Part shown: positions 2,783-22,825 of the stretch, in pieces
Numbering within the stretch: the first letter of the stretch is position 1
How the letters are laid out: each line of letters starts with the position of its first letter
IMG/VR virus record: IMGVR_UViG_3300036766_000949
Coordinates: 1-22,825 of that record
DNA length: 22,825 nt
Strand: one strand, 5' to 3'
Origin: a virus
Program-made: the position numbers and the translations under genes
Notes under the pieces: generated by a model
What the model saw: only the letters and a program-made list of their open reading frames with translations
Databases searched by the model: none
Told to the model about the DNA's origin: nothing

Positions 2783-2976
2783 TTGGTCCGCATGCCGGCG
2801 CCGTGGATGGCGCGATCGCCGCGCGCCGGACCGCACTCGCCACTGCGGATCGCGACGACGCGGTCCGCGTTGGCCAGCACGTCGGCTGCGGTCATGGTCA
2901 GCGTAGCGCCGGCGGCGTAGCGCCGGTCTCCCAGCTTGACTTCGCACCCAGGCTTCACGACGACGGTCTTCAACAT
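2779..2976 (-). CDS. Small hypothetical protein (65 aa)
   Basis: The protein starts MLKTVVVKPGCEVKLGDRRY at ATG 2976-2974 and continues AAGATLTMTAADVLANADRV. This looks like a small beta barrel or SH3-like fold (short strands, a GDRRY turn, then a helix) followed by a basic tail ending GAGMRTK. Its stop overlaps the GTG of the holin-like gene by 4 bases, supporting translation as a pair. It is the first gene after the capsid gene and its downstream hairpin. No strong Shine-Dalgarno is visible. The position fits small capsid-accessory or head-completion proteins, but I do not recognise it. Confidence 0.55.
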   Translation of the reverse strand: MLKTVVVKPGCEVKLGDRRYAAGATLTMTAADVLANADRVVAIRSGECGPARGDRAIHGAGMRTK

Positions 2977-2991
2977 GGTGGTGGTGTGATT

Positions 2992-3015
2992 CGGGGGGCC
3001 CCGGAGGGCCCCCCG
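2992..3015 (-). terminator. Strong GC hairpin after the capsid gene (terminator or attenuator candidate)
   Basis: A perfect 10-bp stem (CGGGGGGCCC pairing with GGGCCCCCCG) encloses a 4-base loop. It lies 22 bases after the stop of the major capsid gene and 15 bases before the next start. Reading leftward it is followed by AATCACACC rather than a T-run, so it is not a textbook intrinsic terminator. It may reduce read-through or stabilise the 3' end of the abundant capsid mRNA. Confidence 0.5.
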
Positions 3016-3037
3016 TCTCTGTTGGCCAGCTCTGCGA

Positions 3038-4459
3038 TCAGATCTGGACGTTGCGGAGGATGGCCACGGCCGGATCCGACTCGAACCAGCCCCGGAACGT
3101 GACGCGCCGGAGCGCGACGAGGATGGTCTGGTCCGTGACCGGAACGTACTGGCTCGCGAGCTTGGTCGCGCGCCGGTCGCCGTGCATGAACTGAGAGACG
3201 TTGACGCACATCACGAGGCCGCGGTCGGTCGTGACGCCGTCGTAGACGCCCGTGGTGGAGAGGTTCTCGCGCATCTTCGGCGAGAGGATGATCGGGATGC
3301 CGTCGATCTGCGCGATCTGCCCGGTGAGGATGGTCGCGTTCGGGCCGAGCTTGTCCACCGTGATGACGGGGGACGGGTTGGTCGCGGACATCGGGTCCTC
3401 GACCTGGAGCATCTTGATGGCGCCCGCCATGCCCACGGCGTAGACGAGCTGGCTGACGTCCGCCCCGTACTTGCCCATCTTCACCCGCAGGGTGCGGAGG
3501 TCGGTGAGCCCGATCCGGGACTTGTCGGAGCAGGTGTTCGTGACCTTGGCGCCGGACACGGCGAGCTTGCGCAGGCCCTTCCAGGCCTTCCGGCCGTCCG
3601 TGGAACCGGTGACGTCCGAGTCCTGGTGGGTCCCGGTGGTGTCGCCGTTGATGTCGCAGTCCTCTTCCTGGTTGGCGATCGCCAGGGCGATCTTCTCGTT
3701 CAGGTACGGCAGCACGGGGACGATGACGTCCTCCCGGGCCTCCTCGCTGAACGTGGTCCGCACGCCGATCTTCTTGGAGGTCAGCGTGAGTGTGCCCGGG
3801 TTCGGATCCTCGGAGCTGTCCGAGAACGAGGACTTCACCCGGTTGCCGGCGGTGAGGTCGGCGTCCGCGTCACCCTGCTCGGTGACCATGTACGCCGTGG
3901 CGTCGTCCCCTTCGATCGGGAACGTGTAGGGGTCGTTCGGCATGTCGATGCGCCGGAACAGCCCCGCGACGCGGAGCTGCATGCGAACCTGCTTGTGGAG
4001 CGAGCTCGAGAAGACGTTCGGGATCCAGCTGTCGAGCCCGGTCGCCCCCGTGTCGAGGCTCTTGCGGAGGATCGGGAGATCCTCCATGGCGCGCTTGTAG
4101 TAGTCCGTGGTGCGGACATCGACGCGCGCGTCGTCCTCGTCACGCAGGACGTGACTGAGGATCAGGAGGTCGTCGTTCACCTTGTGCAGGTGCCGATCCT
4201 CGTCCGTGAGAGGGGCGCGCTTGAGGCGCGCTCCGATGACCGCGCGCGTGCTGCTGGCGCTCTCGCCGCGCTCGCGGTCTGCGTCTTCGCGATCGTCCCC
4301 GCCAGTGCGGCCGGTGGGGGTGAGCTTGCCGGCGATGCCCTCGAGCGACGCCTGCATGCGGACCTTGGCCTCCTTGCCCTCCGGCGTCGACTCGTCCAAG
4401 CGGCCGAGCTCGTCGCGGAGCGCAGAGAGTTCCCTGAGTGCTTCCTGATTGCGTGCCAT
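3038..4459 (-). CDS. Major capsid protein, HK97 family
   Basis: This 473-residue protein forms the icosahedral shell. Residues 1-50 are charged and helical (RNQEALRELSALRDELGRLD), like the delta/scaffold domain at the N-terminus of HK97-type capsid precursors, which the prohead protease removes; a low-complexity Asp/Glu/Arg stretch follows near 55-70. The body contains typical HK97-fold segments: TDYYKRAMEDLPILRKSLDT before the N-arm/E-loop region, KKIGVRTTFSEEAREDVIVP, NEKIALAIANQEEDCDINGD (spine helix and loop) and a C-terminal strand region ending RRVTFRGWFESDPAVAILRN. It follows the protease gene by 78 bases. A Shine-Dalgarno-like AAGGAGG lies about 16 bases upstream of the ATG, rather far. 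Family assignment rests on these motifs plus portal-protease-capsid order. Confidence 0.92.
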   Translation of the reverse strand: MARNQEALRELSALRDELGRLDESTPEGKEAKVRMQASLEGIAGKLTPTGRTGGDDREDADRERGESASSTRAVIGARLKRAPLTDEDRHLHKVNDDLLILSHVLRDEDDARVDVRTTDYYKRAMEDLPILRKSLDTGATGLDSWIPNVFSSSLHKQVRMQLRVAGLFRRIDMPNDPYTFPIEGDDATAYMVTEQGDADADLTAGNRVKSSFSDSSEDPNPGTLTLTSKKIGVRTTFSEEAREDVIVPVLPYLNEKIALAIANQEEDCDINGDTTGTHQDSDVTGSTDGRKAWKGLRKLAVSGAKVTNTCSDKSRIGLTDLRTLRVKMGKYGADVSQLVYAVGMAGAIKMLQVEDPMSATNPSPVITVDKLGPNATILTGQIAQIDGIPIILSPKMRENLSTTGVYDGVTTDRGLVMCVNVSQFMHGDRRATKLASQYVPVTDQTILVALRRVTFRGWFESDPAVAILRNVQI

Positions 4460-4537
4460 GATGGTTCTGGCTGATCCTCCTTAAGTGGTGTGCCCGCGGT
4501 TGGTCCCGGCCGCGGGTAGCGCCGGCTTGCCCTGTGA

Positions 4538-5518
4538 TCAGGCGGCCTGGGTGACTCCGAGGCCCTCCGCGAGTGCCTTGATGCGGGTCTCCATGCTGGT
4601 GAGCGTCGCGGCCTGCTCGTCGTTCCGCGCCCGCTTCTGGCGCAGCAACTCGTTGCCGGCGGCGAGGGCCACTGGCTCGACGTCGTCGAGACGCGTTTCG
4701 TGCTCCGTGCTCTTGGCCTCGAGCGTGTCGAGGCGTGCAGTCAGCTTCACGATGAACTCCTCCGGGGCGCTGCACTCGACGCAGATCGCCCATTCCAGGT
4801 CGCCGGCGGCGGCCGCGAACGCCCGCACGTCGGTGTCGGCAGTCTCGCAGACCGCACAGGTGCCCTTGATCCAGGCCGGCAACACGCAGCGGACCTCGAG
4901 CGGATCCCCCGGAGGCTCCTTGGCCGCCGGCGAGGCGACGCCGCGCTCCTTCAGGATCACGAGCAGCTGATCGGTCGAGGCGCTGCGAAGATCGGGCGCC
5001 TCGTCGTCGAGCATCGAGACCTTGAAGAGCTTGCCGGTCTCGTCGAGCGTGAAGATCGACTGCCGGTTGGCGGGAATCGAGACGACGCTGATCTCGTACA
5101 GCTCCAGCTGGGTGATGTGGTACACCTCGTCCATGTCGTACTCGCCGTCGAGCTCGCGGAATCCGATACTGAAGGTGCGCAGCACGCCGGCCTTGACGAG
5201 CCGGATCGTCTCGTCCGACGCGACCGTGCCGGGCACGATGCAGCCGCTGACCCAGAGGCCCTCCGCCTTGACCGCGAGGTCGTCGAAGTACCCGATCGGC
5301 GTTTCCACGTTGTGCTGCAGGAGCATGATCGGGTTCTGCTTGTAGGTGTCGATCGTGCCGCTGAACGCCCCGACCTCGACGATCTCCTTGTAGCGATCGA
5401 CGTTCGGAGTGTTCGCGTAGCCCGAGATCCGCACGCCGCCCTCGGGGGTCGGGATGACGGAGAGCTGCGTGAGCTGGAAGCTCTTGGTGCGGCCGCGGAT
5501 CTGCTTGGTCGTTGCCAT
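4538..5518 (-). CDS. Prohead protease, HK97 type, with C-terminal Cys4 and coiled-coil extension
   Basis: This is the serine protease that matures the prohead. The expected His-Ser-Glu triad is visible: His69 (MLLQHN), Ser117 (LRTFSIGF) and Glu142 (LELYEISVVSIPAN). The catalytic domain covers about residues 10-165. At 326 residues it is longer than typical S78-type proteases (about 180-220). The extra C-terminal part holds two CxxC pairs (Cys221/224 and Cys246/249), spaced like a small zinc site, then a Glu/Arg/Leu-rich helical segment (about 253-320) that looks like a coiled coil. The extension could act as scaffold or recruit the protease to the capsid precursor; that is inference. It sits between portal and capsid genes, the usual HK97 order, 8 bases after the portal stop. 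Confidence 0.92.
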   Translation of the reverse strand: MATTKQIRGRTKSFQLTQLSVIPTPEGGVRISGYANTPNVDRYKEIVEVGAFSGTIDTYKQNPIMLLQHNVETPIGYFDDLAVKAEGLWVSGCIVPGTVASDETIRLVKAGVLRTFSIGFRELDGEYDMDEVYHITQLELYEISVVSIPANRQSIFTLDETGKLFKVSMLDDEAPDLRSASTDQLLVILKERGVASPAAKEPPGDPLEVRCVLPAWIKGTCAVCETADTDVRAFAAAAGDLEWAICVECSAPEEFIVKLTARLDTLEAKSTEHETRLDDVEPVALAAGNELLRQKRARNDEQAATLTSMETRIKALAEGLGVTQAA

Positions 5519-5526
5519 ACTGTGTT

Positions 5527-7128
5527 CTATTCTACTGTCCCGCTTCTGGTGTCCGCGTACCGAGCCTGCAACCGGTCCAGCGCGGCGAGAATCTCCGCGT
5601 CGACCTCGTCCGCGATGCCCTTCGTCGGGCCCTTCATCGGTGCGCCGCCAGGATCGGCTCCCGCGGGGTCACCTTCGGCGGGGTTGTTCGGATCCGTCGC
5701 GACGTTGCCGTTCGGATCCGCCGGCACCGCGGCGCCCGCGACCTTCGCAAACGGGTTGGTGTCGTCCTTGATCGGCACCATGGCCTGGTTGGTCCACATC
5801 ACCCGGGCCCAGGCCGGAGGCTGGACGTGCGGGTACAGCTCGGCGAGCACCATCTCGAGGCTCCAGCCGGAGGCGAAGAGCGTGCGGGCCGCCTGCGAGC
5901 GCACCAGCTCCTTCTGCACGTCCTCCTTGAGGGCCGGGATCGCGCGGGTGTTCGGGACCAGCTCGAGCTCGCCGGGGAACAGGCCGACCAGCTCGCGGTT
6001 GAGGCTCCCCAGCACCTTCTCGAGCAACGGGAAGATCGTGAAGTAGTAGAAATTCACGACCTGCTGCGCGATGCCCGCGCTCTGGTTCGTGGTCTTCTCG
6101 CCACCGGAGAGCCCGGCAACGGCGAGTGGCACGCCGAGCAGGGCGAGGATCTCGTCGCGGCTCATGCGGCGCGCCTCTAGCCAGTCGAGATCCTTCGGGC
6201 TGAGCGCGATCTTGTCGTACTTCAGGCCGCCGCTCAGGATGATGACCTGGCCCGCCTTGTCCTTGCCGCCCGAGACCATGCGCTTGATCTCGGCGCGGAG
6301 GCGCCGCATCGTCTTGTCGTCGATGTCGTGCTCGGTGCTGACCGAGCCCGCCGGCCACGCCCCGTTCTGCATGAAATTCCGGTTCCACTCGACGGAGCTG
6401 AGATCAGTGCCGATCGGCGCCGAGGCGACCGTGATCGGGGACAGGCCCCAGTAGTCGTTGGCTGGGTGTGCCTCGCGGATGTGGATGATCTCGTCGGCGG
6501 TGAACGTGACGGTGCGATCCGAGAGCTGGTACCGGTACTCCTTCACCTTCGTGCTGGCGTTGCCCGCGACGATGGTCATGCGGGTCGGGTTCAGCACGTA
6601 GAGCGACGTCGGCCGCTTGAACCCGTCGCGCTCCGCCTTCTCGATGAAGCAGTTGCCGGTCAGCTTGAGGCTGACCGCGATCTGCTCGAAGAAGTCGAAG
6701 CGGCTCGTGTACGGGTTCGGGTGTAGCAGCAGGTCGCGCAGGCCGCCGGCGGGCGAGTCGAGGACTGCGCCGGGCTTGCCCTTCTGCTTGGACCGGATGA
6801 TCTGGAACGGGATCTGGGCGAAGGCGCTCGCGATGCGGTTGACGCCGATGTAGACCCAGGTGCAGCGCCCGTAGGTGCGCTGGAGCTTCTCGAGGTTCTG
6901 CTCCGCGGCCTCGACGTACTGCGTCGGGTCGAAGGCACGCGCGGTGTAGGCCTCCGCCTTGGCGGTGCGTCGGCCGATGGCGCGCTTCGCGCCGCGCGGC
7001 TGTGGCCCGTACGGGTTGGCGATCTCGACGAGGGCGGCGCTGGCCGCAGACCGCTTCGCGGGCGCTACTCGAGCGCGGGATCGGCTCGGACGGGGCTTGG
7101 CCTTGGCGGCCTGACGCTTCGCTGCCAC
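5527..7128 (-). CDS. Portal protein, HK97 family
   Basis: The 533-residue product forms the dodecameric portal ring at the capsid vertex through which DNA is packaged. Recognisable stretches are YIGVNRIASAFAQIPFQIIR near the start of the core, LLLHPNPYTSRFDFFEQIAV, TGNCFIEKAERD, the wing-type SLYVLNPTRM, DEIIHIREAHPANDYWGLSP, then EWNRNFMQNGAWPAGSVS and the RDEILALLGVPLAVAGL segment, all characteristic of HK97-type portals. The start is GTG at 7128, directly behind a run of seven G residues; an ATG 8 bases upstream is out of frame. The first 30 residues are very basic (Lys/Arg/Ala-rich) and the C-terminal 60 residues are Pro/Gly/Asp-rich, both probably disordered. The next gene is the prohead protease. 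Confidence 0.93.
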   Translation of the reverse strand: MAAKRQAAKAKPRPSRSRARVAPAKRSAASAALVEIANPYGPQPRGAKRAIGRRTAKAEAYTARAFDPTQYVEAAEQNLEKLQRTYGRCTWVYIGVNRIASAFAQIPFQIIRSKQKGKPGAVLDSPAGGLRDLLLHPNPYTSRFDFFEQIAVSLKLTGNCFIEKAERDGFKRPTSLYVLNPTRMTIVAGNASTKVKEYRYQLSDRTVTFTADEIIHIREAHPANDYWGLSPITVASAPIGTDLSSVEWNRNFMQNGAWPAGSVSTEHDIDDKTMRRLRAEIKRMVSGGKDKAGQVIILSGGLKYDKIALSPKDLDWLEARRMSRDEILALLGVPLAVAGLSGGEKTTNQSAGIAQQVVNFYYFTIFPLLEKVLGSLNRELVGLFPGELELVPNTRAIPALKEDVQKELVRSQAARTLFASGWSLEMVLAELYPHVQPPAWARVMWTNQAMVPIKDDTNPFAKVAGAAVPADPNGNVATDPNNPAEGDPAGADPGGAPMKGPTKGIADEVDAEILAALDRLQARYADTRSGTVE

Positions 7129-7243: not shown

Positions 7244-7504
7244 CTAAGTGCAGCGCGTTACGGACGCTCCGTCAGGCAGCTGCTCGATCTGGGGCGGGGT
7301 GGTCTTGAAGTACTCCGCGGCGAGTTCGACGAAGAAGGCCGCGTCCGCCACTCCGATCTCCGTCGGGGTCTGCTCCGAGAATCGGCGCTCCGCGTCCGCG
7401 CGATCCTCGGAGGACATTGCTAGGTAGGCGCGGTGCCACGCCGCGAAGATCTTCTCGAAGTCCTTCTGCGTACCGGACACTAGTACCTGCGCGTTCTGCT
7501 CCAT
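7244..7504 (-). CDS. Small hypothetical protein (86 aa)
   Basis: The ATG at 7504-7502 has a good Shine-Dalgarno (GGGAGGA, about 5 bases upstream) and lies 10 bases after the exonuclease stop, so the two genes are probably one unit. The protein starts MEQNAQVLVSGTQKDFEKIF, continues with AAWHRAYLAMSSEDRADAER and ends SVTRCT. It appears mostly alpha-helical and acidic. No motif or family is recognised. Its pairing with a lambda-type exonuclease raises the possibility of an accessory role in recombination, but nothing in the sequence proves this. A 115-base gap without a clear gene separates it from the portal. Confidence 0.6.
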   Translation of the reverse strand: MEQNAQVLVSGTQKDFEKIFAAWHRAYLAMSSEDRADAERRFSEQTPTEIGVADAAFFVELAAEYFKTTPPQIEQLPDGASVTRCT

Positions 7505-7514
7505 CGGTCCTCCC

Positions 7515-8108
7515 TCAGCCCCAGCCAGGACGTTCCTGCCGTAGCCACGCGCCCCAGAAGCCGGCAAGGCACTGCACGAGCCTGATCTGAAACGCGCGGT
7601 CCGCGGCAATGCGCTGCACGACGGGCAGCGCCGTCAGGCCTTCCGGAGGCCACGCCACGAAGTGCGCCTGCCGCGCCCCCGTCACCAGCAGCTGTTGCTG
7701 GACCTGCGGGTAGTAGTACTCAGGAATCCCGTGACGCTGCATCCGTCGGAAGCTGTGCGCAGCGGGCGCCTTGATCTCGAGAATCTCCGCGCCATCCGGC
7801 GAGAGCCCGTCGAGACTGGCCCGTATGAACGGGGCCTCTTCATGTTCGACGCAGGCCGGCACCCAATCGACCCCGGTCATGGCGGAGTACACTGCCCGGA
7901 TGTACGGTTCCCGGGCCTTGCCGCGAGCAATGTGCGCCTTGGCAGCCTCCGTGAAGTACCGCGGCTTTCCCTCGAGCGTGTCCCACACCGAGTCGGCCGT
8001 CTCGTAGGGGTTGAGCCCCATGATGGCGGCGGCATCCGACGCGCCCAGGCCGCGCTGCCGCCACGCGAGCCACTCCGCGGAGTCCTGGGAGAGGTCGACG
8101 ATCCTCAT
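7515..8108 (-). CDS. Lambda-type (YqaJ-like) recombination exonuclease
   Basis: This 197-residue protein carries the PD-(D/E)XK core of the lambda exonuclease/YqaJ family, which digests one strand of double-stranded ends to give 3' single strands for recombination. Visible motifs are RGLGASDAAAIMGLNPY (residues 19-35), RGKAREPYI with Glu67, ASLDG with Asp100, LEIKAP with Glu111 and Lys113, and YYPQVQQQLLVTG (residues 132-144), where QxQxQ contacts the active site. All expected catalytic residues are present. The ATG has GGAGAA about 7 bases upstream. A single-strand annealing partner (Bet/RecT) is not seen in the window. It is unusual that this replication/recombination gene lies in the late operon just ahead of the portal. 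Confidence 0.88.
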   Translation of the reverse strand: MRIVDLSQDSAEWLAWRQRGLGASDAAAIMGLNPYETADSVWDTLEGKPRYFTEAAKAHIARGKAREPYIRAVYSAMTGVDWVPACVEHEEAPFIRASLDGLSPDGAEILEIKAPAAHSFRRMQRHGIPEYYYPQVQQQLLVTGARQAHFVAWPPEGLTALPVVQRIAADRAFQIRLVQCLAGFWGAWLRQERPGWG

Positions 8109-8171
8109 ACGAAGTTCTCCATCACAAACTGGGGTCCTGCGCCCGGCGTGCCCGCTGTTCTGGCGATCTGG

Positions 8172-9338
8172 TCACACGAAGGAGAGGTGCCCGGGGCGGG
8201 GGGCCGCCGCGACCTGCTGCTCATAGACGCGATCCCCCATGAGCCGCAGCGCCTCGATGTTGCGCTGCTCATAGAGGCAGTGGATGCGACAGTCGCGACG
8301 CGGGTCGTGCTGGGCGCGCCACGCCGCGCCCTCGCCGAACCACATCTCACGAAAGGGCTTGTCGCGGATCGTGCCCATGAGGCCCATCTGGTTGTAGGAC
8401 CACGAGCAGCACGCGTAGACATTCTGGTCCGCGCCGATGACGCAGCCGACCTCTTTCCAGTAGCAGAAGGGGTACTCCTGGCGGCCGAGCGCGGTGTTGT
8501 GCCATCGCTCCGTCGAGAGGTCATGGATCGTGAAGCCGGCACGCTCGAAGTCCGCCTTGGCCCGCTGCACCATCGGCGGGACGGTCTCGCGGCACTCCTG
8601 GTCGAAGCGGCTGAGCCCATCCGGGGTGAAGCTAGTCGAGATCCGGATGTTGTGCGCGCCCGCCTCCATGGCGAGCCGGCACGCATCATAGACGCCGCGC
8701 CAATTCCCGCGGTCGATGACGAAGCCGACGCCGACGGTGGACTCGGGATGGGCGTAGGGCTGCTTCGCCTGCGCGGACAGGAACGCGACCGCCTCCCAGG
8801 CCCGCTCCCAGTGGCTGAGCGGCGTGTTGCGGACCGCGACGTAGTCCTCCGCGTTGCCCGCGTCGACCGAGACCCGCACCCAGGTGAAGGGCAGCTGCCC
8901 GAGGCGCTCGGCCCGCCGCGGGTCAATGCGCGTGCCGTTCGTCACCAGGGCCAGCTCCATGCCACACGCGGCGATGCGGGCGCACAGCTCGTCGAAGTCT
9001 GGGTGCAGGGTCGGCTCGCCGCCACCCGTCACCTCGACGCATTTGACGCCGGCGAGGGCCAGCTCGTCCACGGTCTCCATCAACTTGCCGGAGGGGATCA
9101 TGTCGCGCGTCCCGAACAGCTCCTGGTTCTTCCAGAGCGCCTTGTCCGGGTTCGCGACCTTGGCGCGCACCGACTCCGGCCCCGAGCCGTAGCTGCAGAA
9201 GCTGCAGGCCTGGTTGCACAGGTTGGACGGCATGAGCTGCACGATCAGCGGGGGCTGCGGGGCGCCCTCACGAAGCGCCTGCAGCGCCTCAGGGTGGAAG
9301 GCGATCTTCGACACGCTGTAGATCTGATTGGTGGACAT
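8172..9338 (-). CDS. Radical SAM enzyme with SPASM-like C-terminal Cys clusters
   Basis: The 388-residue protein has the canonical CxxxCxxC motif (CNQACSFC, Cys41/45/48), which binds the 4Fe-4S cluster that cleaves S-adenosylmethionine, followed by the SAM-binding VTGGGEPTLHP segment (about 103-113) and a barrel fold to about residue 280. The C-terminus holds further cysteines (Cys292, 299, 310, 311, 350, 354) arranged like a SPASM/twitch auxiliary cluster domain (FCYWKEVGCV, NVYACCSWSY, RRDCRIHC). SPASM enzymes usually modify peptides or small carbon substrates; the substrate here cannot be read from sequence. It starts at ATG 9338, overlapping the methyltransferase stop by one base, so it belongs to the methyltransferase and glycosyltransferase cassette. 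Confidence 0.88.
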   Translation of the reverse strand: MSTNQIYSVSKIAFHPEALQALREGAPQPPLIVQLMPSNLCNQACSFCSYGSGPESVRAKVANPDKALWKNQELFGTRDMIPSGKLMETVDELALAGVKCVEVTGGGEPTLHPDFDELCARIAACGMELALVTNGTRIDPRRAERLGQLPFTWVRVSVDAGNAEDYVAVRNTPLSHWERAWEAVAFLSAQAKQPYAHPESTVGVGFVIDRGNWRGVYDACRLAMEAGAHNIRISTSFTPDGLSRFDQECRETVPPMVQRAKADFERAGFTIHDLSTERWHNTALGRQEYPFCYWKEVGCVIGADQNVYACCSWSYNQMGLMGTIRDKPFREMWFGEGAAWRAQHDPRRDCRIHCLYEQRNIEALRLMGDRVYEQQVAAAPRPGHLSFV

Positions 9339-10769: not shown

Positions 10770-10984
10770 GGCGTCCCTCCCATTGCGGCGCGGGCCTTCC
10801 GCTCCGTGTCCAGGCACCACTCGAGCCGCAGCCCGCTGGCGTACAGCATCCGGTAGAGCAGGGCCTTCTCGCCCGCGATGAGGTGCTGGAGCAGCCAGCG
10901 CACCCGCTCCTCCGCCTCGGCCCAGGTCTTAGGCGGCCCGAGCGGCAGCGGCATCTGCAGGGGATCGCCGTAGCCGAAATTCAT
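10766..10984 (-). CDS. Small hypothetical protein between two glycosyltransferases (72 aa)
   Basis: The start at 10984 overlaps the stop of the upstream glycosyltransferase by 4 bases, and its stop overlaps the ATG of the next one by 4 bases, so it is translationally coupled on both sides. It begins MNFGYGDPLQMPLPLGPPKT and continues with a helical, charged region (WAEAEERVRWLLQHLIAGEK and ALLYRMLYASGLRLEWCLDT). It may be a small helical adaptor. I do not recognise a family; coupling with two glycosyltransferases suggests it acts with them. Confidence 0.65.
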   Translation of the reverse strand: MNFGYGDPLQMPLPLGPPKTWAEAEERVRWLLQHLIAGEKALLYRMLYASGLRLEWCLDTERKARAAMGGTP

Positions 10985-11778
10985 CCGTCGTCCCGCTCCA
11001 CGATCATGGACTCGCTGCCCCAGTCCCGGCCGACGTTGGCGACGCGGTACTCGGGATCCGCGATGAGCCGCTCGTAGAGCGCCTTCGCGATGCCGACGCC
11101 GCGCTGGTCCGCCGTCTCGACGCGCGGGTGTGGCTGGTGGAAGCCACGGATCGCCCGGCCGCTGAACATGAACTCGCCGCCATTCGCGCGGAACCGATGC
11201 GCGAACTCGGTGTCCTGATAGCCCCAGCCTGTGAGGAACTCCTCCTCGAACCCACCGATGCGGAGCATGAAGTCCCGGTTGTAGACACCGAGGAAATGGA
11301 GTGGGCGCCGCCCCGGTCCGCCACCGATCATCCCGCGCGTCTGCGGATCTCCGGCCATAGCCGGGTCGAACACGTCGCAGATCAGCGCGTGGTTCTCCGC
11401 GAGCGGCCAGCTCTCCATCCGGTCCAGGTTGGTCCGGACCTCGTACATGACCTCTGGCGAGGACAGGACGACGCGCTCTCCCCGCGCCATCTTCATGCCG
11501 AGGTTCAACGCCGGCGAGGAGTCGTTGAAGATTCCGTGCTGGTAGACGCGGCCCCGGAACGCCTCGAGCCGGTGGATGTCGATCTTCACGTACCGAATCT
11601 GGAGCCCGTGGGCGCGGTAGGTGCGGAGGAGCGGCAACAGCTCTGGATCAGTGCCGCCGTCGTCGATGATGATCACCTCGAACTCGTCCGCCGGCAGCGT
11701 CTGGGACGTGAGGGTCTGCAGCGTCGGCTTGAACAGCGCGGTCCGCTCACAGATCGGAAAGATCAGGCTCAACTGCAC
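10981..11778 (-). CDS. Glycosyltransferase family 2 with GT7-like C-terminal region
   Basis: The 265-residue frame starts at GTG 11778-11776 with GGAGGT about 5 bases upstream and overlaps the end of the preceding gene by 32 bases. It starts MQLSLIFPICERTALFKPTL, then FEVIIIDDGGTDPELLPLLR (residues about 33-52), the classic GT-A IDDGS-like nucleotide-binding loop. PALNLGMKMARGERVVLSSP follows where family 2 enzymes have N.G...A.G; here the usual DxD is replaced by SSPEV, as in some polypeptide N-acetylgalactosaminyltransferase-like members. IGGFEEEFLTGWGYQDTEFA is the acceptor/catalytic-base region found in the glyco_transf_7C domain. Substrates are unknown. It overlaps the 72-residue gene at its end. 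Confidence 0.85.
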   Translation of the reverse strand: MQLSLIFPICERTALFKPTLQTLTSQTLPADEFEVIIIDDGGTDPELLPLLRTYRAHGLQIRYVKIDIHRLEAFRGRVYQHGIFNDSSPALNLGMKMARGERVVLSSPEVMYEVRTNLDRMESWPLAENHALICDVFDPAMAGDPQTRGMIGGGPGRRPLHFLGVYNRDFMLRIGGFEEEFLTGWGYQDTEFAHRFRANGGEFMFSGRAIRGFHQPHPRVETADQRGVGIAKALYERLIADPEYRVANVGRDWGSESMIVERDDG

Positions 11779-16168: not shown

Positions 16169-16228
16169 CCTACCCACCACCACCTCCCGCAGGAGCCCCG
16201 TTCCCGGGGCCCCGTCTCTCCGACCCGC

Positions 16229-17950: not shown

Positions 17951-18409
17951 CTACCCACCGTCCACGATCCCTGAATCGTGAATGGATTCTGAATGGATAC
18001 CCGGCACACCGGCTACGAGGGGGCTGAAGTGTGGGAACACGGCGCCGACGTCGCGCACGCCCTTCTTGAGATTGCGGGGGCCGCATGCCGGCACCACGTT
18101 CGCCGCGGTGTGCGCGCCGCCCCTGGCAATCGGGACGATGTGCTCCATGTGGGGCTGCGCCGTCGGGGTGCGGCAGTAGGCGCAGGCGCCGTCTGTGTTC
18201 GGACCTACCGAGTCAAGGCTGCCCGCTTCTTTCGCGTGAGGCAAACCCGCCTGCTCGAGGGGGCCTTTTTCTGGGGCCGGGAATTTCGGCGCGCATATCG
18301 CGCGACCGTACGCATGGCCCCCCCGGCCCCCCCCTAGGAGAAGAATCCGAGACCCGACCCGGTGGGTATTACCCAAGCACGGGGCCCGGAATGCCGCGCC
18401 GTTGCTCAC
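17951..18409 (-). CDS. HNH endonuclease-like protein with altered zinc ligand
   Basis: The conserved core lies at about residues 75-116 of the longest frame: ACAYC (Cys76/Cys79), HMEHIVPIARGG (Glu89-His90), TAANVVPACGPRNLKKG (Asn104, Cys109). This is the HNH/McrA pattern, used by phages next to terminase to nick DNA during packaging (HK97 gp74-type). The second zinc pair is incomplete: Arg112 (CGC) replaces the expected Cys (TGC). The start is unclear: GTG 18409 gives 152 residues but lacks a ribosome site and a low-complexity Gly-rich stretch follows; TTG 18244 would give 97 residues, closer to typical HNH length. It is the first gene of the leftward block. The core is sure; activity and start are not. 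Confidence 0.75.
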   Translation of the reverse strand: MSNGAAFRAPCLGNTHRVGSRILLLGGGRGGHAYGRAICAPKFPAPEKGPLEQAGLPHAKEAGSLDSVGPNTDGACAYCRTPTAQPHMEHIVPIARGGAHTAANVVPACGPRNLKKGVRDVGAVFPHFSPLVAGVPGIHSESIHDSGIVDGG

Positions 18410-18880
18410 TGTGGCAGGGGGATGGATTCCCCCACGAGTGTCCGATTGACGCGCCGGGCCGATTCGTCGCGAGGGGTTGCCGCGTCGATGCGCTAGGGCG
18501 CGTTAGGGAGGCGCGGCGCGCCCGGCCTTGGGCCCGTAGGGCCGGGTCGCCGGTACGCGGTCCTACGTTCGCTCCCAAAACTCGCTGGGGGGCGCGGCAC
18601 GTCGGGCTCGGGGGCCCAAAATCCGCTTGGGGCGAGTTTCCTTAGTCTTTACCCTCCGGGCGCCGGCCCCGTTTGTCCTAGCGACATCACGTTTGGCGGT
18701 CAGGAAATACCCTAGCGTACTCGAGGTCTTACGCCGTTACCTGGCCATCGGTCAACCTAAACCGACCCGGAGTGTCAAGTAGCGCAAGGGGGCCGAAAAT
18801 AGTGCTAAGCGCCGGCGTTTGTTAGGGTTTTGTAGTTTCGTTACTCTGAAAACTAGCGAGCCCGTGCTATGACCGTTGCA
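18410..18880 (+). other. Divergent intergenic region without a supported gene
   Basis: About 470 bases lie between the leftward and rightward gene sets. Open frames here look like shadows: Arg/Pro/Ser-rich, no ribosome site. The part from about 18640 to 18860 is visibly less GC-rich than the genes. It contains CTAGCG three times (18678, 18712, 18853). A weak promoter candidate for the rightward genes is TTGTTA (18819-18824), 17 bases before TACTCT (18842-18847). Functionally this is where early and late promoters, operators or an origin would be expected. Confidence 0.45.
18574..18639. repeat. Imperfect direct repeat inside an inverted repeat
   Basis: CCCAAAACTCGCTGGGG (from about 18575) is nearly repeated as CCCAAAATCCGCTTGGGG (from about 18615), about 40 bases apart. 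The outer edges also form an inverted repeat, AAACTCGC (18578-18585) with GCGAGTTT (18632-18639). Such pairs are typical of operators or replication-protein sites, but no protein or function can be assigned. Confidence 0.4.
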
Positions 18881-18946
18881 CGTCGCATGGAGCGACGACA
18901 GAGACGCGGGCCCCTGGCGGGGCGCGCAAAGAGAGGGAGAAGCGCC
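18881..18946 (+). promoter_or_regulatory. Leader module A of the first early unit
   Basis: A perfect 6-bp hairpin (CGTCGC, loop ATGGA, GCGACG, 18881-18897) is followed by ACAGAGAC, then a GC hairpin (18906-18927, CCCC-TGGC-GGGG core with one G/G mismatch in the outer stem), then GAGAGGGAG and ATG at 18947. It shares the order box, GGGCCC-type hairpin, ribosome site, ATG with four other leaders, but its upstream hairpin lacks the conserved cap seen in modules B, D and E. Confidence 0.6.
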
Positions 18947-19147
18947 ATGGTCGCAATTCGGTTCCTGTACGACGACGGCACGGCGGGCCCGGAACCCATG
19001 CCGTGCCTGCGACGGCGTGAACACGCCGAAGCGTTCGCGGCGGGTCTACTGGCCAGCGTTGCTGACTGCCCGATCCGGGTGCGGGGTTGGCGCAAGCTGG
19101 TTGCGGTCGCGTTCCTTCCGGTTCCCCGTAGCGCGGTGGCGCTGTAA
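18947..19147 (+). CDS. Early-region small hypothetical protein (66 aa)
   Basis: The protein starts MVAIRFLYDDGTAGPEPMPC and ends VAFLPVPRSAVAL. The ATG at 18947 is chosen because leader module A with its ribosome site ends directly before it; a longer in-frame start at 18869 would run through the hairpin. It looks like a small alpha/beta protein with a central helix (REHAEAFAAGLLASVADCP). Its stop overlaps the next ATG by one base (TAATG). It is the first gene of a five-gene unit. No family is recognised. Confidence 0.6.
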   Translation: MVAIRFLYDDGTAGPEPMPCLRRREHAEAFAAGLLASVADCPIRVRGWRKLVAVAFLPVPRSAVAL

Positions 19148-19398
19148 TGGCACGCCGTACCGGGAGGCCGGCCCCGTGCGAGTGCGCCGATTCGGGGTGC
19201 ATCATGCACGCGGGTAGGGGCGGGTGTGGGGCCCCGTCGGCTGGTGTCCTGTACCGGGTCGACATGAGCGACAGCACGGGCGTCGCGGCTTGTGAGGGGT
19301 GCGCCGACGACATGCTTGACTCGGGAGTGTTCAGTGACTGTCGCCCCGTGCGCAAGGGGCGCGACGAATCGGCCCGGTTCGCGGGTGCCACATGGTAA
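19147..19398 (+). CDS. Small Cys-rich early protein (83 aa)
   Basis: It starts MARRTGRPAPCECADSGCIM, overlapping the previous stop by one base. Seven cysteines are present, among them CEC near residue 11, Cys18, Cys27, and a CEGC pair near residue 49 followed by ADDML. The spread looks like a zinc-binding small protein of the kind common in early regions of actinobacteriophages (Cys pairs plus a C-terminal CADDM-like segment). Function is unknown. It overlaps the next gene by 7 bases. Confidence 0.6.
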   Translation: MARRTGRPAPCECADSGCIMHAGRGGCGAPSAGVLYRVDMSDSTGVAACEGCADDMLDSGVFSDCRPVRKGRDESARFAGATW

Positions 19399-19688
19399 CG
19401 GTCACGGCGCGGACGGCCGAGGGGGGCTCGGTTCTCCTGAACAAGGCGCACCACGTCTGGGCGAGCTATGCGGTTGCGGGCGTGGCCGACCTACCGGCGT
19501 CGTCGATTCTACGCGCGGGGGCGACGTTGCTCGATGGGCGAGCGGTTCAGTTTTTCCTCAATCGGGAAACCGGGCTGGTAGTGGTCGACGTGGTGGACAA
19601 GGGCGGACGTGGTGGCGTCGAGGTACTGCGCCGTACCATCGCGCCCTGTACGCACTGCGGGTGCAAGCCGGGGATGGTGCGCGCATGA
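19392..19688 (+). CDS. Early-region hypothetical protein with C-terminal CxxC (98 aa)
   Basis: The frame begins at ATG 19392 inside the end of the previous gene and starts MVTVTARTAEGGSVLLNKAH. It has beta-type segments (ATLLDGRAVQFFLNRETGLV, VVDVVDKGG) and ends with a Cys cluster, APCTHCGCKPGMVRA (three Cys in five residues), which may bind zinc. The stop overlaps the next ATG by 4 bases (ATGA). No family is recognised. Confidence 0.6.
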   Translation: MVTVTARTAEGGSVLLNKAHHVWASYAVAGVADLPASSILRAGATLLDGRAVQFFLNRETGLVVVDVVDKGGRGGVEVLRRTIAPCTHCGCKPGMVRA

Positions 19689-19966
19689 AAACGCAGCTAG
19701 CGTCGCGCATTCAGTGGTTGTTCCCGGTGGATCGCGAAGTATACGGCACGCGTCGTGCGGGCGCAGACGAGCCCCCGCCGTGCGCTCGGTGTGGGGGGGC
19801 CGGGTACGGCGCGGCGGGCATGCGGCAAGCGGTCGTATTCGACACGCGGGTGCGCGGTACGACGTGGAAGGACCGGGCGCTCGGCGCGATCCACCGGGGG
19901 TGCGTGCCGGTGCGAGACGAGTTCAAGGGCGCTGGCGTACCGGCCCGCATGAGAGGGGGGCGCTAG
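19685..19966 (+). CDS. Early-region hypothetical protein with CxxC (93 aa)
   Basis: The ATG at 19685 overlaps the previous stop by 4 bases. The protein starts MKTQLASRIQWLFPVDREVY and carries PPPCARCGGAGYG (Cys33/36), a DnaJ-type zinc-ribbon half-site, followed by MRQAVVFDTRVRGTTWKDRA and a further Cys (RGCVPVRDEF). It could be a compact zinc-binding protein. The longer upstream extension of the same frame is rejected since it runs through two other genes. Function is unknown. Confidence 0.6.
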   Translation: MKTQLASRIQWLFPVDREVYGTRRAGADEPPPCARCGGAGYGAAGMRQAVVFDTRVRGTTWKDRALGAIHRGCVPVRDEFKGAGVPARMRGGR

Positions 19967-19967
19967 C

Positions 19968-20189
19968 ATGGCCACCAGTCGCAAGGGGAACGGGCACCCC
20001 GCGTGCAAGGCGTGCGGGCGCTACATCGGTCGGGTTGCGGCGAGTGCCGTGGTGGGGCGCATCGTGGCGGTTCTCTACCCGAGCGATGATCCCGACGCGG
20101 AGTGGTCGCCCGATACGATCGACGACGTAGCGCGCGTCCTAGCCGATGCGGGTTTCGGCCCGCACGCAGGAAAGCGCGCTGGGCGGTAG
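19968..20189 (+). CDS. Early-region hypothetical protein with CxxC (73 aa)
   Basis: It begins MATSRKGNGHPACKACGRYI one base after the previous TAG and is the last gene of the first early unit. CKAC (Cys13/16) suggests a zinc site, with helical segments after it (ASAVVGRIVAVLYP and DTIDDVARVLADAGF). No family is recognised. Leader module B follows its stop. Confidence 0.55.
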   Translation: MATSRKGNGHPACKACGRYIGRVAASAVVGRIVAVLYPSDDPDAEWSPDTIDDVARVLADAGFGPHAGKRAGR

Positions 20190-20199
20190 CGTCGGCGCG

Positions 20200-20286
20200 T
20201 TCTCTCCGTTCCGCTGGGAGCGGGGAGGGCGGGCACGATGCCCTAGAGAGACGGGCCCGGACACGGGCCCGAGAAAAGGGCGGAGC
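20200..20286 (+). promoter_or_regulatory. Leader module B (three hairpins)
   Basis: Hairpin 1 (20202-20227) is an 11-bp stem with two G.U pairs, cap TTCC-GCTG-GGGA. Hairpin 2 (20231-20243) is GGGC, loop ACGAT, GCCC. Then comes AGAGAGA and hairpin 3 (20252-20271), a perfect 7-bp CGGGCCC/GGGCCCG with a six-base loop, then AAAGGGCGGAG and ATG at 20287. No T-run follows hairpin 1 or 3. Confidence 0.7.
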
Positions 20287-20853
20287 ATGGGAACGCGTGG
20301 ATGCATCGCTCGACGCACGGGCGAGTTTTCCTTCAAGGGCCGATACCACCACTGGGACAGCTACCCGAGCGGACTCGGCGCGGCGTTGTTCGCACTGAAC
20401 CGCGGACACTTCGGCGGAGATACTGCCGCCATGCTCCGGGTCCTGCTGGACGAGCACAAGGCGGGCTGGTCTACGATCCTAGGTGCGGATTTCTCGCTTC
20501 CGCCGGAGCCCGTTGACGGGCGGACCGACGATGCGCCGCGGGGACCGTCCTGCTACTGCCACGGTGGGCGGTCCGAGACGGCTAGCCTTCTGACCGAAAA
20601 GAACGCGGCCGGATCGGGCGTCGAGTACGCCTACGCGTTCACGGACGGCGGCGCGATGCTAGTGCTGTCGAGCTACCATCCGTCGGGCGGCAAGATGGTT
20701 GGATACTTCGGATCGGGCAACCCGCGGAGTCACTGGCGCTTGCTCGCCACCGTGAACCTGGACGGCGACGCGCCCAACTGGGAAGCGATCGAGGCGCGGG
20801 GCGGCGACGGTGCGCCGGTGTGGGGAGCCCACCGGTGCCGCCGCGCCAGCTAA
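20287..20853 (+). CDS. Conserved phage hypothetical protein, 'GRYxHWDxYP' family-like (188 aa)
   Basis: The ATG at 20287 directly follows leader module B; an upstream in-frame ATG at 20146 would code through the hairpins. The protein starts MGTRGCIARRTGEFSFKGRY and continues HHWDSYPSGLGAALFALNRG, then RVLLDEHKAGWSTILGADFS. This order (MxTRGxIA, GRYxHWDxYPxGxGxxL, a short helix, xEHxxGWS, and a later CYCH-type segment) is familiar from uncharacterised proteins of actinobacteria and their phages. CYCHG near residue 92 could be part of a metal site. A later segment EYAYAFTDGGAMLVLSSY is beta-rich. Function is unknown for the family as far as I know. Confidence 0.7.
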   Translation: MGTRGCIARRTGEFSFKGRYHHWDSYPSGLGAALFALNRGHFGGDTAAMLRVLLDEHKAGWSTILGADFSLPPEPVDGRTDDAPRGPSCYCHGGRSETASLLTEKNAAGSGVEYAYAFTDGGAMLVLSSYHPSGGKMVGYFGSGNPRSHWRLLATVNLDGDAPNWEAIEARGGDGAPVWGAHRCRRAS

Positions 20854-20866
20854 CGAAACCACGTTC

Positions 20867-20910
20867 AACACAGACACGGGCCCCTCACGGGGCTCGGGAA
20901 AGGACGCACG
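20867..20910 (+). promoter_or_regulatory. Leader module C (single hairpin)
   Basis: ACACAGACA is followed by an 8-bp hairpin (20877-20896, CGGGCCCC, loop TCAC, GGGGCTCG, one G.U pair), then GGGAAAGGA and ATG at 20911. It lacks hairpins 1 and 2 and starts 13 bases after the previous stop. Confidence 0.65.
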
Positions 20911-21654
20911 ATGCGTCGAGAGAGAAAGGGCCCCCTCACGGGGGCTTGGAAGCGCGGGTTGCTTACGACGAGCAACCCGAAGGCAGTCAAGGGGGAGGCC
21001 TACGGTTGGTACACCGCGGTCTTGCATCTTGCGCCGCACAGTCTCGCGGGCGGGGTGTCGGTCTGTACCTCCTCAACGGCGGGGTGCCGTCTCGCCTGTC
21101 TGAACAAAGCTGGGCGTGGTGGCGTGGTCGCAGCGGGGCGGCGCACCAATGCTATCCAGCAAGCGCGGGTGAAGCGTACCCGCCTCTACTTCTCAGACCC
21201 GGAGCGGTTCCTTGCGATTCTCGCGGCGGACATTCTCCGGCAGCAACGGCGCGCGACTACGCACGGGCTCCGGTTCGCGGTTCGCCTGAACGGTACCAGT
21301 GACTTGCCGGGGTTGCCGTTGCTCATGTCGGCGCGGTTCCCCGACGTCGTGTTCTACGACTACACGAAGCATCCGGCCCCGTGGAAGCGGGCGCGTCCTA
21401 ACTACAGCGTCACGTTCTCGCGGTCGGAGTCGAACGAGTCGGCGTGCCTGGATGCACTCGCGCACGGCGTCAACGTCGCCGTCGTGTTCTCGACGCGCAA
21501 GGGGGAACCGTTGCCCGCGCGCTGGAAAGGTTGGCCAGTGATGGACGGCGACGTGTCCGACCTGCGTTTCCTCGACGCGCCCCGGCACGTCGTCGGCGTG
21601 CGCGCCAAGGGCCCGGCCCGGCGCGACACGTCAGGATTCGTCGTCGCAGCGTAG
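20911..21654 (+). CDS. Conserved phage protein resembling the gp88/DUF7227 group (247 aa)
   Basis: The sequence contains LLTTSNPKAVKGEAYGWYTA followed by VLHLAPHSLAGGVSVCTSST and AGCRLACLNKAGRGG: the STSNPKxxKG...hLAPxxxSG...C...TxGCxxxCLNxAGRG pattern of an uncharacterised phage family that I associate with DUF7227 or gene product 88-like proteins. Further matches are IQQARVKRTRLYFSDPERFL, AVRLNGTSDLPG, FYDYTKHPAPWKR, YSVTFSRSESNESACLDALA and a KGPARRDTSGFVV end. Three clustered cysteines (about residues 52, 59, 63) may be functional. No activity is established. ATG 20911 follows leader C; TTG 20959 is a possible second start, since a copy of the leader hairpin (20921-20949) lies in between and known relatives begin near LLxTSNPK. 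Confidence 0.75.
   Translation: MRRERKGPLTGAWKRGLLTTSNPKAVKGEAYGWYTAVLHLAPHSLAGGVSVCTSSTAGCRLACLNKAGRGGVVAAGRRTNAIQQARVKRTRLYFSDPERFLAILAADILRQQRRATTHGLRFAVRLNGTSDLPGLPLLMSARFPDVVFYDYTKHPAPWKRARPNYSVTFSRSESNESACLDALAHGVNVAVVFSTRKGEPLPARWKGWPVMDGDVSDLRFLDAPRHVVGVRAKGPARRDTSGFVVAA
20921..20949 (+). repeat. Second copy of the leader hairpin inside the start of the gene
   Basis: AGAGAAA is followed by GGGCCCCC, loop TCAC, GGGGGCTT (20928-20947; 8 bp, two G.U pairs). This repeats leader C, 51 bases further on, with the same TCAC loop. Then GGAAGCG and TTG at 20959 follow in frame. It could be a duplicated leader with an alternative start or a chance in-frame copy. Confidence 0.5.
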
Positions 21655-21662
21655 GAGGCGCG

Positions 21663-21747
21663 TCTAGGTCGTTCCGTCCGGGAGCGACCTAGCCGGGCAT
21701 TCCCGCCCACAGAGAACCGGGCCCCTACGGGCCCGCAAGGGGGAACC
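21663..21747 (+). promoter_or_regulatory. Leader module D (three hairpins)
   Basis: Hairpin 1 (21664-21692) pairs CTAGGTCGTTCC with GGGAGCGACCTAG over 12 bp, one T.G pair (21672/21684). Hairpin 2 (21694-21708) is a short GGGC/GCCC stem. CACAGAGAAC precedes hairpin 3 (21718-21735), a perfect 7-bp CGGGCCC/GGGCCCG with loop CTAC. CAAGGGGGAACC leads to ATG at 21748. Confidence 0.72.
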
Positions 21748-22023
21748 ATGGAAACGACGACGACAACCGGACCGCGACCGATCCACGCCATTGCGCGCGA
21801 CATCGCGCGGGTATGGGGGGCGCAGGGGAGCGGTGTGTACTTCGGCGCGGTGCCGTACCTGCGCGCCATGTCCACCATGCAGTCGGCACGCGAGGCCTAC
21901 GGCTACGACAGCGGCGAGTCCATCGTTCTCTACTTCCTGTCGAATGCCAAGACGTTCCGGGGACCGGAGGCGCGGACCTTGAAGGCCGAGCTGAAAGCGG
22001 CGCTCGCGTCGGCGGGGGTGTGA
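21748..22023 (+). CDS. Early-region hypothetical protein (91 aa)
   Basis: It starts METTTTTGPRPIHAIARDIA directly after leader module D and continues with RVWGAQGSGVYFGAVPYLRA and MSTMQSAREAYGYDSGESIV, ending AELKAALASAGV. The pattern HxIAxxIxxxWxxxxxxxYFGAxPYLxAM plus YGxDSxxxIVxYFLxNAxxFRGxxA is one I have seen in small early proteins of actinobacteriophages; they are uncharacterised. It is mainly helical. The next gene starts 2 bases after its stop, so the two form one unit. Confidence 0.7.
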   Translation: METTTTTGPRPIHAIARDIARVWGAQGSGVYFGAVPYLRAMSTMQSAREAYGYDSGESIVLYFLSNAKTFRGPEARTLKAELKAALASAGV

Positions 22024-22025
22024 CG

Positions 22026-22325
22026 ATGGAACACACTTACAAGCGCCCGATGCGCAAGCTGTACCGGCCGGTGGGGCTGGATCGGTTCGACGCCAAGCAC
22101 GACATTCCGCCGGGAACCGTCGTGCTGGTAACGGCGAGTTGGGGACCGTTCCGAGGCATCGTGACTCTGGACGGCCGGACGCACGGTAGCTGCGGCAAGG
22201 GCTCGCTGGTTCCCGTGCCGCGTCCGGTGCATCGGTGCGTCCGGTGTAGCGGCGTGCTGCCAGCGTCCGGGTACTGCCCGTTTCATGGGAGAGGGGGGCG
22301 CGGCGCAGCAACCGCCACCTTCTAG
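22026..22325 (+). CDS. Early-region protein with C-terminal zinc-ribbon-like motif (99 aa)
   Basis: The ATG at 22026 lies 2 bases after the previous stop. The protein starts MEHTYKRPMRKLYRPVGLDR and shows beta-type segments (GTVVLVTASWGPFRGIVTLD, GRTHGSCGKGSLVPV). It ends with RCVRCSGVLPASGYCPFHGR, that is CxxC followed by CxxH ligands typical of a small zinc ribbon. The longer frame from 21813 is a shadow of the previous gene. The family is not recognised; the fold suggests a small nucleic-acid-binding or SH3-like protein. Confidence 0.65.
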   Translation: MEHTYKRPMRKLYRPVGLDRFDAKHDIPPGTVVLVTASWGPFRGIVTLDGRTHGSCGKGSLVPVPRPVHRCVRCSGVLPASGYCPFHGRGGRGAATATF

Positions 22326-22335
22326 CGGGCGCACG

Positions 22336-22421
22336 TTCTAGCCTTTCCGCCGGGAGAGGCTAGCGCGGGCAACCTGCCCGACAGACAACCGCGGGCCCCC
22401 ACGGGCCCGCAAGGGGGAATC
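22336..22421 (+). promoter_or_regulatory. Leader module E (three hairpins)
   Basis: Hairpin 1 (22338-22363) pairs CTAGCCTTTCC with GGGAGAGGCTAG over 11 bp, one T.G pair (22345/22356). Hairpin 2 (22366-22380) is CGGGC, loop AACCT, GCCCG. GACAGACAAC precedes hairpin 3 (22391-22410), 8 bp perfect with loop CCAC. CAAGGGGGAATC leads to ATG at 22422. From hairpin 3 to ATG it is almost identical to module D. Confidence 0.72.
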
Positions 22422-22825
22422 ATGGACACGGACCGACACACCGAACGCTGCGCGCTGGTTGCGGCCCTGCTGCCGCTCTTGCCCGGTACCTGGACGGAGC
22501 GGCGTCACCCGGACGGGCCCGACGGGTGTCGCTGGCAGTCGACGATGGAGCGGGCCGACGGCGCGTGCCTGAACATTCAGGCCGGGCGCGAGCGGACCGG
22601 CGCGTGGCATATCTCGGCCTCCGTGGGGCACGCGCTCCGGCCGTTCGTTCACAACTACGGGGGCGAAGATGCGGCCCCGGCAATCCACGTGAGCATGGCG
22701 AAGGGGCCCGACGCGGTCGCTCGGGACATCGGGCGGCGCATCCTGCCTGGACTCGACGCGCTCATGGCGCGGCTGGTGTCGCGCCGGGCTGAGTACGACG
22801 CGGCGGCGGATCGGTGCATGGCCAC
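22422..22825 (+). CDS. Partial early-region hypothetical protein, cut by right edge
   Basis: The frame opens at ATG 22422 right after leader module E and stays open for 134 codons to the end of the window. It starts MDTDRHTERCALVAALLPLL and continues RWQSTMERADGACLNIQAGR and ISASVGHALRPFVHNYGGED, then IHVSMAKGPDAVARDIGRRI and a helical LDALMARLVSRRAEYDAAAD. The order of a helical start, a beta segment and a C-terminal helix with IGRRILPGLDALM resembles small hypothetical phage proteins. I recognise no function. The stop is not in the window. Confidence 0.65.
   Translation, partial: MDTDRHTERCALVAALLPLLPGTWTERRHPDGPDGCRWQSTMERADGACLNIQAGRERTGAWHISASVGHALRPFVHNYGGEDAAPAIHVSMAKGPDAVARDIGRRILPGLDALMARLVSRRAEYDAAADRCMA

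Follow-up and report, generated by a model that had tools for sequence, protein, structure and literature searches.

The window analysed in this study is a viral fragment of 22,825 nucleotides (22.8 kb) that covers 3.9 kb of the early region. Repeated leaders are found there ahead of early genes, and the layout of the early copies from 5' to 3' is a hairpin of variable sequence (H2), the box A(C/G)AGANA, a second hairpin (H3), a purine-rich ribosome site and the start codon. H3 has a stem of 7-8 bp and a 4-base loop, and the ribosome-site stretches were GAGAGGGAGAA, AAAGGGCGGAG, GGGAAAGGACG and AAGGGGGAA. The earlier note had reported five leaders, with ATGs at 18947, 20287, 20911, 21748 and 22422, and all of them were located at these positions. 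The coupled internal starts that it listed as lacking a leader (19147, 19392, 19685, 19968 and 22026) did so in five of five cases. The leader was therefore present at 5/5 uncoupled early starts versus 0/5 coupled ones. In this study, we added a sixth copy, C2, within the reading frame of the leader formerly called C (C1 in Table 1), at the start of the GP88 gene. The alternative TTG start behind C2 is where GP88 homologues begin, and it sits in a 9-bp hairpin in the predicted fold.

Table 1. Coordinates of the leaders, their hairpins and associated features in the window.
Feature	Position	Strand	Sequence and context
Leader A	18881..18949	+	ATG 18947; purine-rich ribosome site GAGAGGGAGAA
Leader A, H2	18881-18897	+	CGTCGC-ATGGA-GCGACG
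Leader A, box	18898-18904	+	ACAGAGA
Leader A, H3	18907-18926	+	CGGGCCCC-TGGC-GGGGCGCG, one mismatch
H1 ahead of B	20199..20230	+	14 bp, tetraloop GCTG; 3' of stop codon 20189; without U-tract
Leader B	20231..20289	+	H2 GGGCA-CGA-TGCCC; AAAAGGGCGGAG; ATG 20287
Leader B, box and H3	box 20244-20251; H3 20252-20271	+	box TAGAGAGA; H3 CGGGCCCG-GACA-CGGGCCCG
Leader C1	20852..20913	+	H2 AACG-AAACCA-CGTT; GGGAAAGGA; ATG 20911
Leader C1, box and H3	box 20870-20876; H3 20877-20896	+	box ACAGACA; H3 CGGGCCCC-TCAC-GGGGCTCG
Leader C2 (new)	20903..20961	+	H2 GACGCA-CGA-TGCGTC, ATG 20911 within; box GAGAGAGAAA
Leader C2, H3	20928-20947	+	GGGCCCCC-TCAC-GGGGGCTT; then GGAAG and alternative start TTG 20959
GP88-family gene	20911..21654	+	Pfam PF17338, PHROG 1617; headed by C1/C2
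H1 ahead of D	21664..21692	+	CTAGGTCGTTCC-GTCCG-GGAGCGACCTAG, 12 bp; 3' of stop codon 21654
Leader D	21695..21750	+	H2 GGGC-ATTCCC-GCCC; AAGGGGGAA; ATG 21748
Leader D, box and H3	box 21709-21715; H3 21718-21735	+	box ACAGAGA; H3 CGGGCCC-CTAC-GGGCCCG
H1 ahead of E	22338..22363	+	CTAGCCTTTCC-GCCG-GGAGAGGCTAG, 11 bp; 3' of stop codon 22325
Leader E	22366..22424	+	H2 CGGGCA-ACC-TGCCCG; AAGGGGGAA; ATG 22422
Leader E, box and H3	box 22381-22387; H3 22391-22410	+	box ACAGACA; H3 GCGGGCCC-CCAC-GGGCCCGC
Copy F, late strand	2976..3022	-	box ACAGAGA; H3 CGGGGGGCCC-TCCG-GGGCCCCCCG, 3015-2992
Copy G (weak), late strand	16192..16221	-	box GGAGAGA; H3 GGGGCCCCG-GGAA-CGGGGCTCC

The H3 hairpin had been described as GGGCCC paired with GGGCCC. 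Both arms carry this sequence in B, D and E, but not in the other copies, and the stem of leader A has one mismatch, which corrects the former description. The loops at the longest stem were TGGC, GACA, TCAC, CTAC and CCAC in A to E, so that the NCAC-like loops proposed for B, C, D and E do not extend to B. H2 lies directly before the box (0 nt) in five copies and 4 nt from it in C1, an association with a Fisher p of 6e-5 against all early-region positions in a comparison that allows for the search. B, D and E are also preceded by a long hairpin, H1, which lies 3' of the stop codons; there is none between leader C and the preceding gene.

The leaders had been said to open every early unit. This holds for the available early region, but the same gaps are the only early intergenic gaps of at least 50 nt, so 'unit head' and 'intergenic gap' are inseparable. 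Placement at uncoupled early starts likewise stood, but the late strand has box and hairpin as well, at 3015 and 16213. Copy F lies where the major capsid gene gives way to the next ORF, with ATG 2976 15 nt further on and no ribosome site, and copy G lies directly 3' of stop codon 16229, without a clear downstream start. Translation may therefore not be the sole role of the element.

We investigated whether the arms of each hairpin change together by swapping arms between copies, with stems that were picked by eye. Pair counts were scripted, as MAFFT gave no single structural register for the six copies. H3 paired in 46 of 48 cells compared to a mean of 33.2 (maximum 40) after swapping, and 5 of its 8 positions showed compensatory change. 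H1 paired in 33 of 33 cells compared to 22-23, and H2 in 24 of 24 compared to 10.2 (maximum 16). Since all three hairpins pair despite sequence change, these results favour a folded RNA over a DNA operator. A promoter or operator for a phage regulator or polymerase would fit the well-conserved left arm and box (ACAGANA...GGGCCCC in four copies), and the conservation of the left arm CGGGCCC exceeds the needs of pairing, which counts against an RNA module. However, the right arms and H2 covary rather than being conserved, the box-to-H3 spacing is variable, and no sigma-70-like promoter pattern was found in 18000-22825. The H2-to-H3 linker also varies (8-11 nt), which is easier to reconcile with an RNA element than with a protein-DNA site. 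We thus regard a DNA-level signal as improbable. As a whole, leader D did not fold better than its shuffles (z +0.47; A -0.5, C1 -1.2).

The rarity of the leaders was examined with patterns of different strictness. The pattern ACAGANAN{1,5}GGGCCCCN{2,3}CGGGSC, which fits copies A, C, D and E, matched four times in the 22.8-kb record and never in 100 shuffles; because it was fitted to these same copies, it serves to gauge rarity rather than as an independent test. Among 2.9 million viral contigs it matched none except the window's own record, and in 257 Gb of prokaryote genomes it matched 42 stretches, each single-copy. One of these, a near-copy of D between two ABC-transporter-like genes in Rhizobium (L244), was taken as chance. 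A descriptor that leaves the hairpin sequence free (box, stem of 7 bp or more with a tetraloop, ribosome site and start) found 5 copies in the window, compared to none on either strand of other loci totalling about 2.4 Mb. At least 119 matches were obtained with the looser pattern CGGGCCC...CGGGCCCG...ATG, and among the matches listed none had a comparable leader set, which indicates that the hairpin sequence alone means little. Locus L034 combines this pattern with GP88, but its hairpin is not at the head of the gene. The matches in L246 resemble CRISPR repeats with a similar hairpin, and we drew no link since the repeat tail is absent from the window. ACAGAGA resembles the U6 snRNA box, which we took as coincidence.

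The presence of hairpins in each early gap of at least 50 nt, and the position of F and G 3' of stop codons, could suggest GC-rich intrinsic terminators that lie in gaps by chance. We consider this very improbable, as the H3 hairpins have no sense-strand U-run, share a box ahead of each, and include leader A, which has no same-strand gene before it; H1 is the better terminator candidate. An intrinsic-terminator scan of the + strand listed no H1 or H3, and H3s were listed solely on the opposite strand.

In phage lambda, the nut site consists of a box followed by a hairpin. By inspection, the leaders are similar in architecture to nut/put sites, and an H1 lies downstream of a leader each time, as if a phage factor loaded at box and hairpin carried the polymerase past H1. 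Such antitermination is quite improbable, given that the box is unlike boxA, whose sequence is absent, that H1 lacks a U-tract, and that the fragment has no known N-like gene.

In the early copies, H2 and H3 bracket the single-stranded purine-rich box, and the ribosome site and start codon come directly after H3, as judged from sequence and folding. The ribosome site had a predicted unpaired fraction of 0.47-0.71 in the leaders compared to 0.04-0.36 at coupled starts. Anatomy and predicted accessibility thus give an unpaired distal site, a hairpin and an unpaired proximal site before the start, the arrangement established for the standby module and for the split thrS ribosome site (PMC3936740). 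Based on this model, we propose, at slightly under even odds (about 0.45), that each copy is a cis-acting RNA leader in which H3 forms an insulated standby or split ribosome-site module for uncoupled genes. The box would serve as distal site and the ribosome-site stretch as proximal site; both, kept unpaired, would let the 30S subunit load on a gene without ribosomes from the preceding one. H1, 3' of the stop codon that ends the preceding group, would terminate, process or protect the upstream message, and the module would move as a cassette with non-homologous genes. A further role of the leader may lie in defining mRNA 5' ends or protecting them, with H2/H3 shielding the 5' end of a processed transcript. 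In B and C1, an H2 arm could pair with the ribosome site to form a bistable switch, but not consistently across copies.

The same anatomy could punctuate mRNA processing and stability, with cleavage of a single early transcript in or close to H1/H2 that would leave the hairpins as protective 5' and 3' ends. Models for this would be the RNase III sites of T7-like phages and possibly the hammerhead ribozymes of Janus-type phages. An AT-richer stretch occurs solely before A (51% GC compared to 70-81% before B-E), consistent with one promoter; the 100 nt concerned contain three TANNNT. H1 is long and directly 3' of stop codons, copies F and G have no normal ribosome site, and type II hammerhead ribozymes lie in most early gaps of the Streptomyces phages Janus and Triumph. 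However, leader A has neither a same-strand upstream gene nor an H1, and no Rfam 15 family, ribozyme and processing families included, reached its gathering score in the whole window. The best match, Scr5676 at leader D, scored 27 bits, and its gathering score is 56. We regard this reading as unlikely.

The earlier expectation of conservation in relatives was borne out for the design but not for the sequence, which was not found in close relatives. Several close relatives repeat covarying hairpin leaders of their own, and L063, L133 and L284 had parallel leaders whose stems covary. The window folds showed no tandem three-way junctions of the L063 type. No relative turned up when the viral contigs were scanned with the portal and B-gene proteins. 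Near-identical leaders at uncoupled early genes, with counterparts of unrelated sequence elsewhere, suggest that the element is probably a translation-start or messenger-end module. That H2-box-H3 marks a phage-wide RNA regulon, as a new small self-cleaving or processed motif or as the site of a phage RNA-binding protein, also seems improbable. If true, it would fill the niche that in Janus-type phages belongs to type II hammerheads, and the use of structured leaders to punctuate early messages would have arisen by convergence in unrelated phages.

Among known systems, E. coli thrS and the standby module match the leaders in order and scale (single-stranded site, hairpin, ribosome site), but have no sequence relation and are not a repeated phage cassette; the window module is known from sequence and predicted folding (PMC3936740). 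Type II hammerheads (RF02276) in Janus and Triumph are likewise structured RNAs in gaps ahead of uncoupled early genes, and in HF1/HF2 the hammerhead HHphage lies 13 nt before the helicase start (PMC3088659). However, RF02276 did not match the window at any E value up to 5, and the CUGANGA/GAAA core is absent from the leaders. Microbacterium cluster EG has 18-bp inverted repeats 14-22 bp upstream of right-arm starts, similar in being short and upstream of starts but different in sequence; the available text of PMC7302621 reports no box, second hairpin or covariation for them.

In cluster K mycobacteriophages and Microbacterium cluster EF, the ribosome site carries SAS, a near-invariant sequence of 13 bp that reads GGGATAGGAGCCC or GGGAAAGGACCCC (PMC3203893, PMC7302621). 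ESAS in cluster K consists of 17-bp imperfect inverted repeats upstream of SAS, with little support for RNA pairing (PMC3203893). The earlier analogy with SAS/ESAS is upheld. Both are non-structural-arm repeats directly 5' of the starts of unrelated genes, sometimes with an inverted repeat just before, but copy F lies in the structural arm. The ribosome site is variable in the window leaders, whereas SAS conserves its 13 bp there, and the window stems are 7-8 bp with compensatory changes rather than 17-bp repeats. The leaders of this soil-type phage work like SAS/ESAS signals but are not members. Such repeated signals of actinophages were described in 2011 with no mechanism given. The window copies covary as RNA, and unrelated phages share the layout with other sequences; in one group, the leaders are known self-cleaving ribozymes. 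With RNA covariation and the same layout in unrelated phages, the function of SAS-like repeats becomes a testable question.

All five leaders that the earlier note placed at the head of the early units (A to E, plus strand) were present as described. Leaders A, C, D and E are captured by one pattern, which had four matches in the window and none in 100 shuffles; such counts gauge rarity and are not a blind test, because the pattern was fitted to these copies. It had no match in 2.9 million viral contigs, own record excepted. Across 257 Gb of prokaryote genomes it matched 42 stretches, in single copies only, a density at which about 4e-6 matches are expected per window-sized sequence. A descriptor without fixed hairpin sequence matched the window five times, and the other loci compared gave no match.

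The GC-rich hairpin (H3) has a stem of 7-8 bp and a loop of 4 bases. The small hairpin (H2), with a stem of 4-6 bp, lies just upstream of the box A(C/G)AGANA and changes sequence in nearly every copy. Upstream of B, D and E, a long hairpin of 11-14 bp (H1) comes shortly after the stop codon that ends the previous gene; its tip, TTCC..GGAG, is common to the copies and its base is variable. Leader C consists of two tandem leaders, C1 and C2, and C2 falls inside the reading frame drawn by the earlier reader. GP88 homologues begin at a TTG downstream of C2, and L131, the nearest GP88 relative (60%), has an ATG at the corresponding site and no such leader. The TTG, a candidate start, is hidden in a predicted 9-bp hairpin.

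As far as sequence can tell, the leaders would act as RNA and not as DNA. H3 paired at 46/48 in its own copies, and swapping right arms between copies reduced this to a mean of 33 (best 40); five of eight positions carried compensatory changes. Arm swapping likewise lowered pairing from 33/33 to 22-23 in H1 and from 24/24 to 10 (best 16) in H2. The stems entering these tests were picked by inspection; for H2, a test allowing for the search gave a Fisher p of 6e-5. The spacing from box to H3 was variable, scanning of both strands found no sigma-70-like promoter pattern, and the 70-80 nt upstream of B-E were 70-81% GC. Whole-leader folding energies were not uniformly unusual (z -3.8 to +0.5), so the support for RNA structure comes from covariation.

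The window takes in an entire virus record of 22,825 bases, which is most likely a fragment, since the sequence stops within the early region. Its minus strand carries head and packaging genes (terminase, portal, head maturation protease, major head protein). Two early genes had clear relatives, and the family search matched most of the other small ones to nothing. The divergent region upstream of 18947 is higher in AT than the rest of the window. An HNH-endonuclease-like reading frame was seen by eye upstream of the terminase gene, and ARAGORN called a probably spurious tRNA-Arg within the predicted protease ORF.

The proposed restriction to unit-leading early genes held in the early region, where every uncoupled start and 0/5 coupled starts had a leader, but copies also occur on the late strand. 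There, two of seven boxes stood directly upstream of a tetraloop hairpin (31 such hairpins), against about 0.07 expected. Copies F and G thus show that the element is not exclusively early. Neither copy has both a normal ribosome site and a normal start, which keeps alive the rival, less likely reading of the leaders as mRNA processing or stability elements. The leaders are observed to recur, to sit at particular starts and to covary; on the preferred reading they form a module that would let genes start translation independently and may also define or protect mRNA ends, a function that we infer with a probability of about 0.45. Predicted ribosome-site openness was greater in leaders than at coupled starts.

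Features of the window and of the phage loci compared
Feature	Position	Strand	Details
Leader A			H3 loop TGGC; H2 arms CGTCGC/GCGACG
Leader B			GACA; GGGCA/TGCCC
Leader C1			TCAC; AACG/CGTT
Leader C2			TCAC; GACGCA/TGCGTC
Leader D			CTAC; GGGC/GCCC
Leader E			CCAC; CGGGCA/TGCCCG
Copy F	3015	late	between major capsid gene and following ORF; ATG 2976 lies 15 nt downstream; ribosome site absent
Copy G, weaker	16213	late	after stop codon
tRNA-Arg (gcg), probably spurious	4798-4881	minus
HNH-like frame	18050-18250	minus	H..HI.P...GG....NV.P.C
Small early genes	18947 to contig end	plus
Gene with relatives	20911		GP88 family, PF17338
Gene with relatives	21748		PHROG 13953
Candidate TTG start	20959
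Perfect 9-bp hairpin	20955-20979		CGGGTTGCT/AGCAACCCG; first codons of GP88 core
L133 leaders	10776-11738		GTC-[7 bp stem]-ACTGAGGAGAC
L284 leaders	7417-8187		[8-11 bp stem]-TCACAACTGGAGG
L063 leaders, 7-8	~1590-7100		three-way junction, GGGACGA, 8-bp covarying hairpin, CAGACAGAGAG, ATG
L143 leaders	4246, 4692, 6042		loop TTCAATC or similar; stem variable
Janus (L364), NC_054660	11935-19151	minus	8 RF02276 above gathering score, 3 more below
Triumph (L365), OQ190479	10831-18733	minus	8 RF02276 above gathering score

L279, which has three early genes in common with the window, had no such leader in the region read. Several relatives carried their own repeated leaders of different sequence. In L003-L006, ACACGGAGG is repeated and often preceded by a hairpin. 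The repeated leaders of L133 and L284 both combine covarying stems with a phage-specific ribosome-site sequence, and the swap test gave 24/24 paired versus 8 swapped for L284. The leaders of L063, a phage found by DNA pattern and without known kinship to the window, include a T-arm-like hairpin in their three-way junction and had no Rfam match above threshold. Repeated leaders shaped like tRNA T-arms were also seen before starts in L143, an AT-rich phage.

The L284 comparison led to the Streptomyces phages Janus and Triumph, whose early gaps are mostly occupied by type II hammerhead ribozymes (RF02276). Their record tables annotate no RNA features at these arrays before early genes, and the literature searched held no report of them. 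Hammerheads are already known from phage intergenic regions (PMC3088659).

The window leaders matched no Rfam family. The suggested analogy with the SAS/ESAS pair of cluster K mycobacteriophages stands in so far as the leaders work like those signals, but they fail the sequence definition, and unlike ESAS they have RNA-pairing support (PMC3203893). In layout, an unpaired site, a hairpin and an unpaired ribosome site, they match a standby module or the split ribosome site of thrS (PMC3936740).
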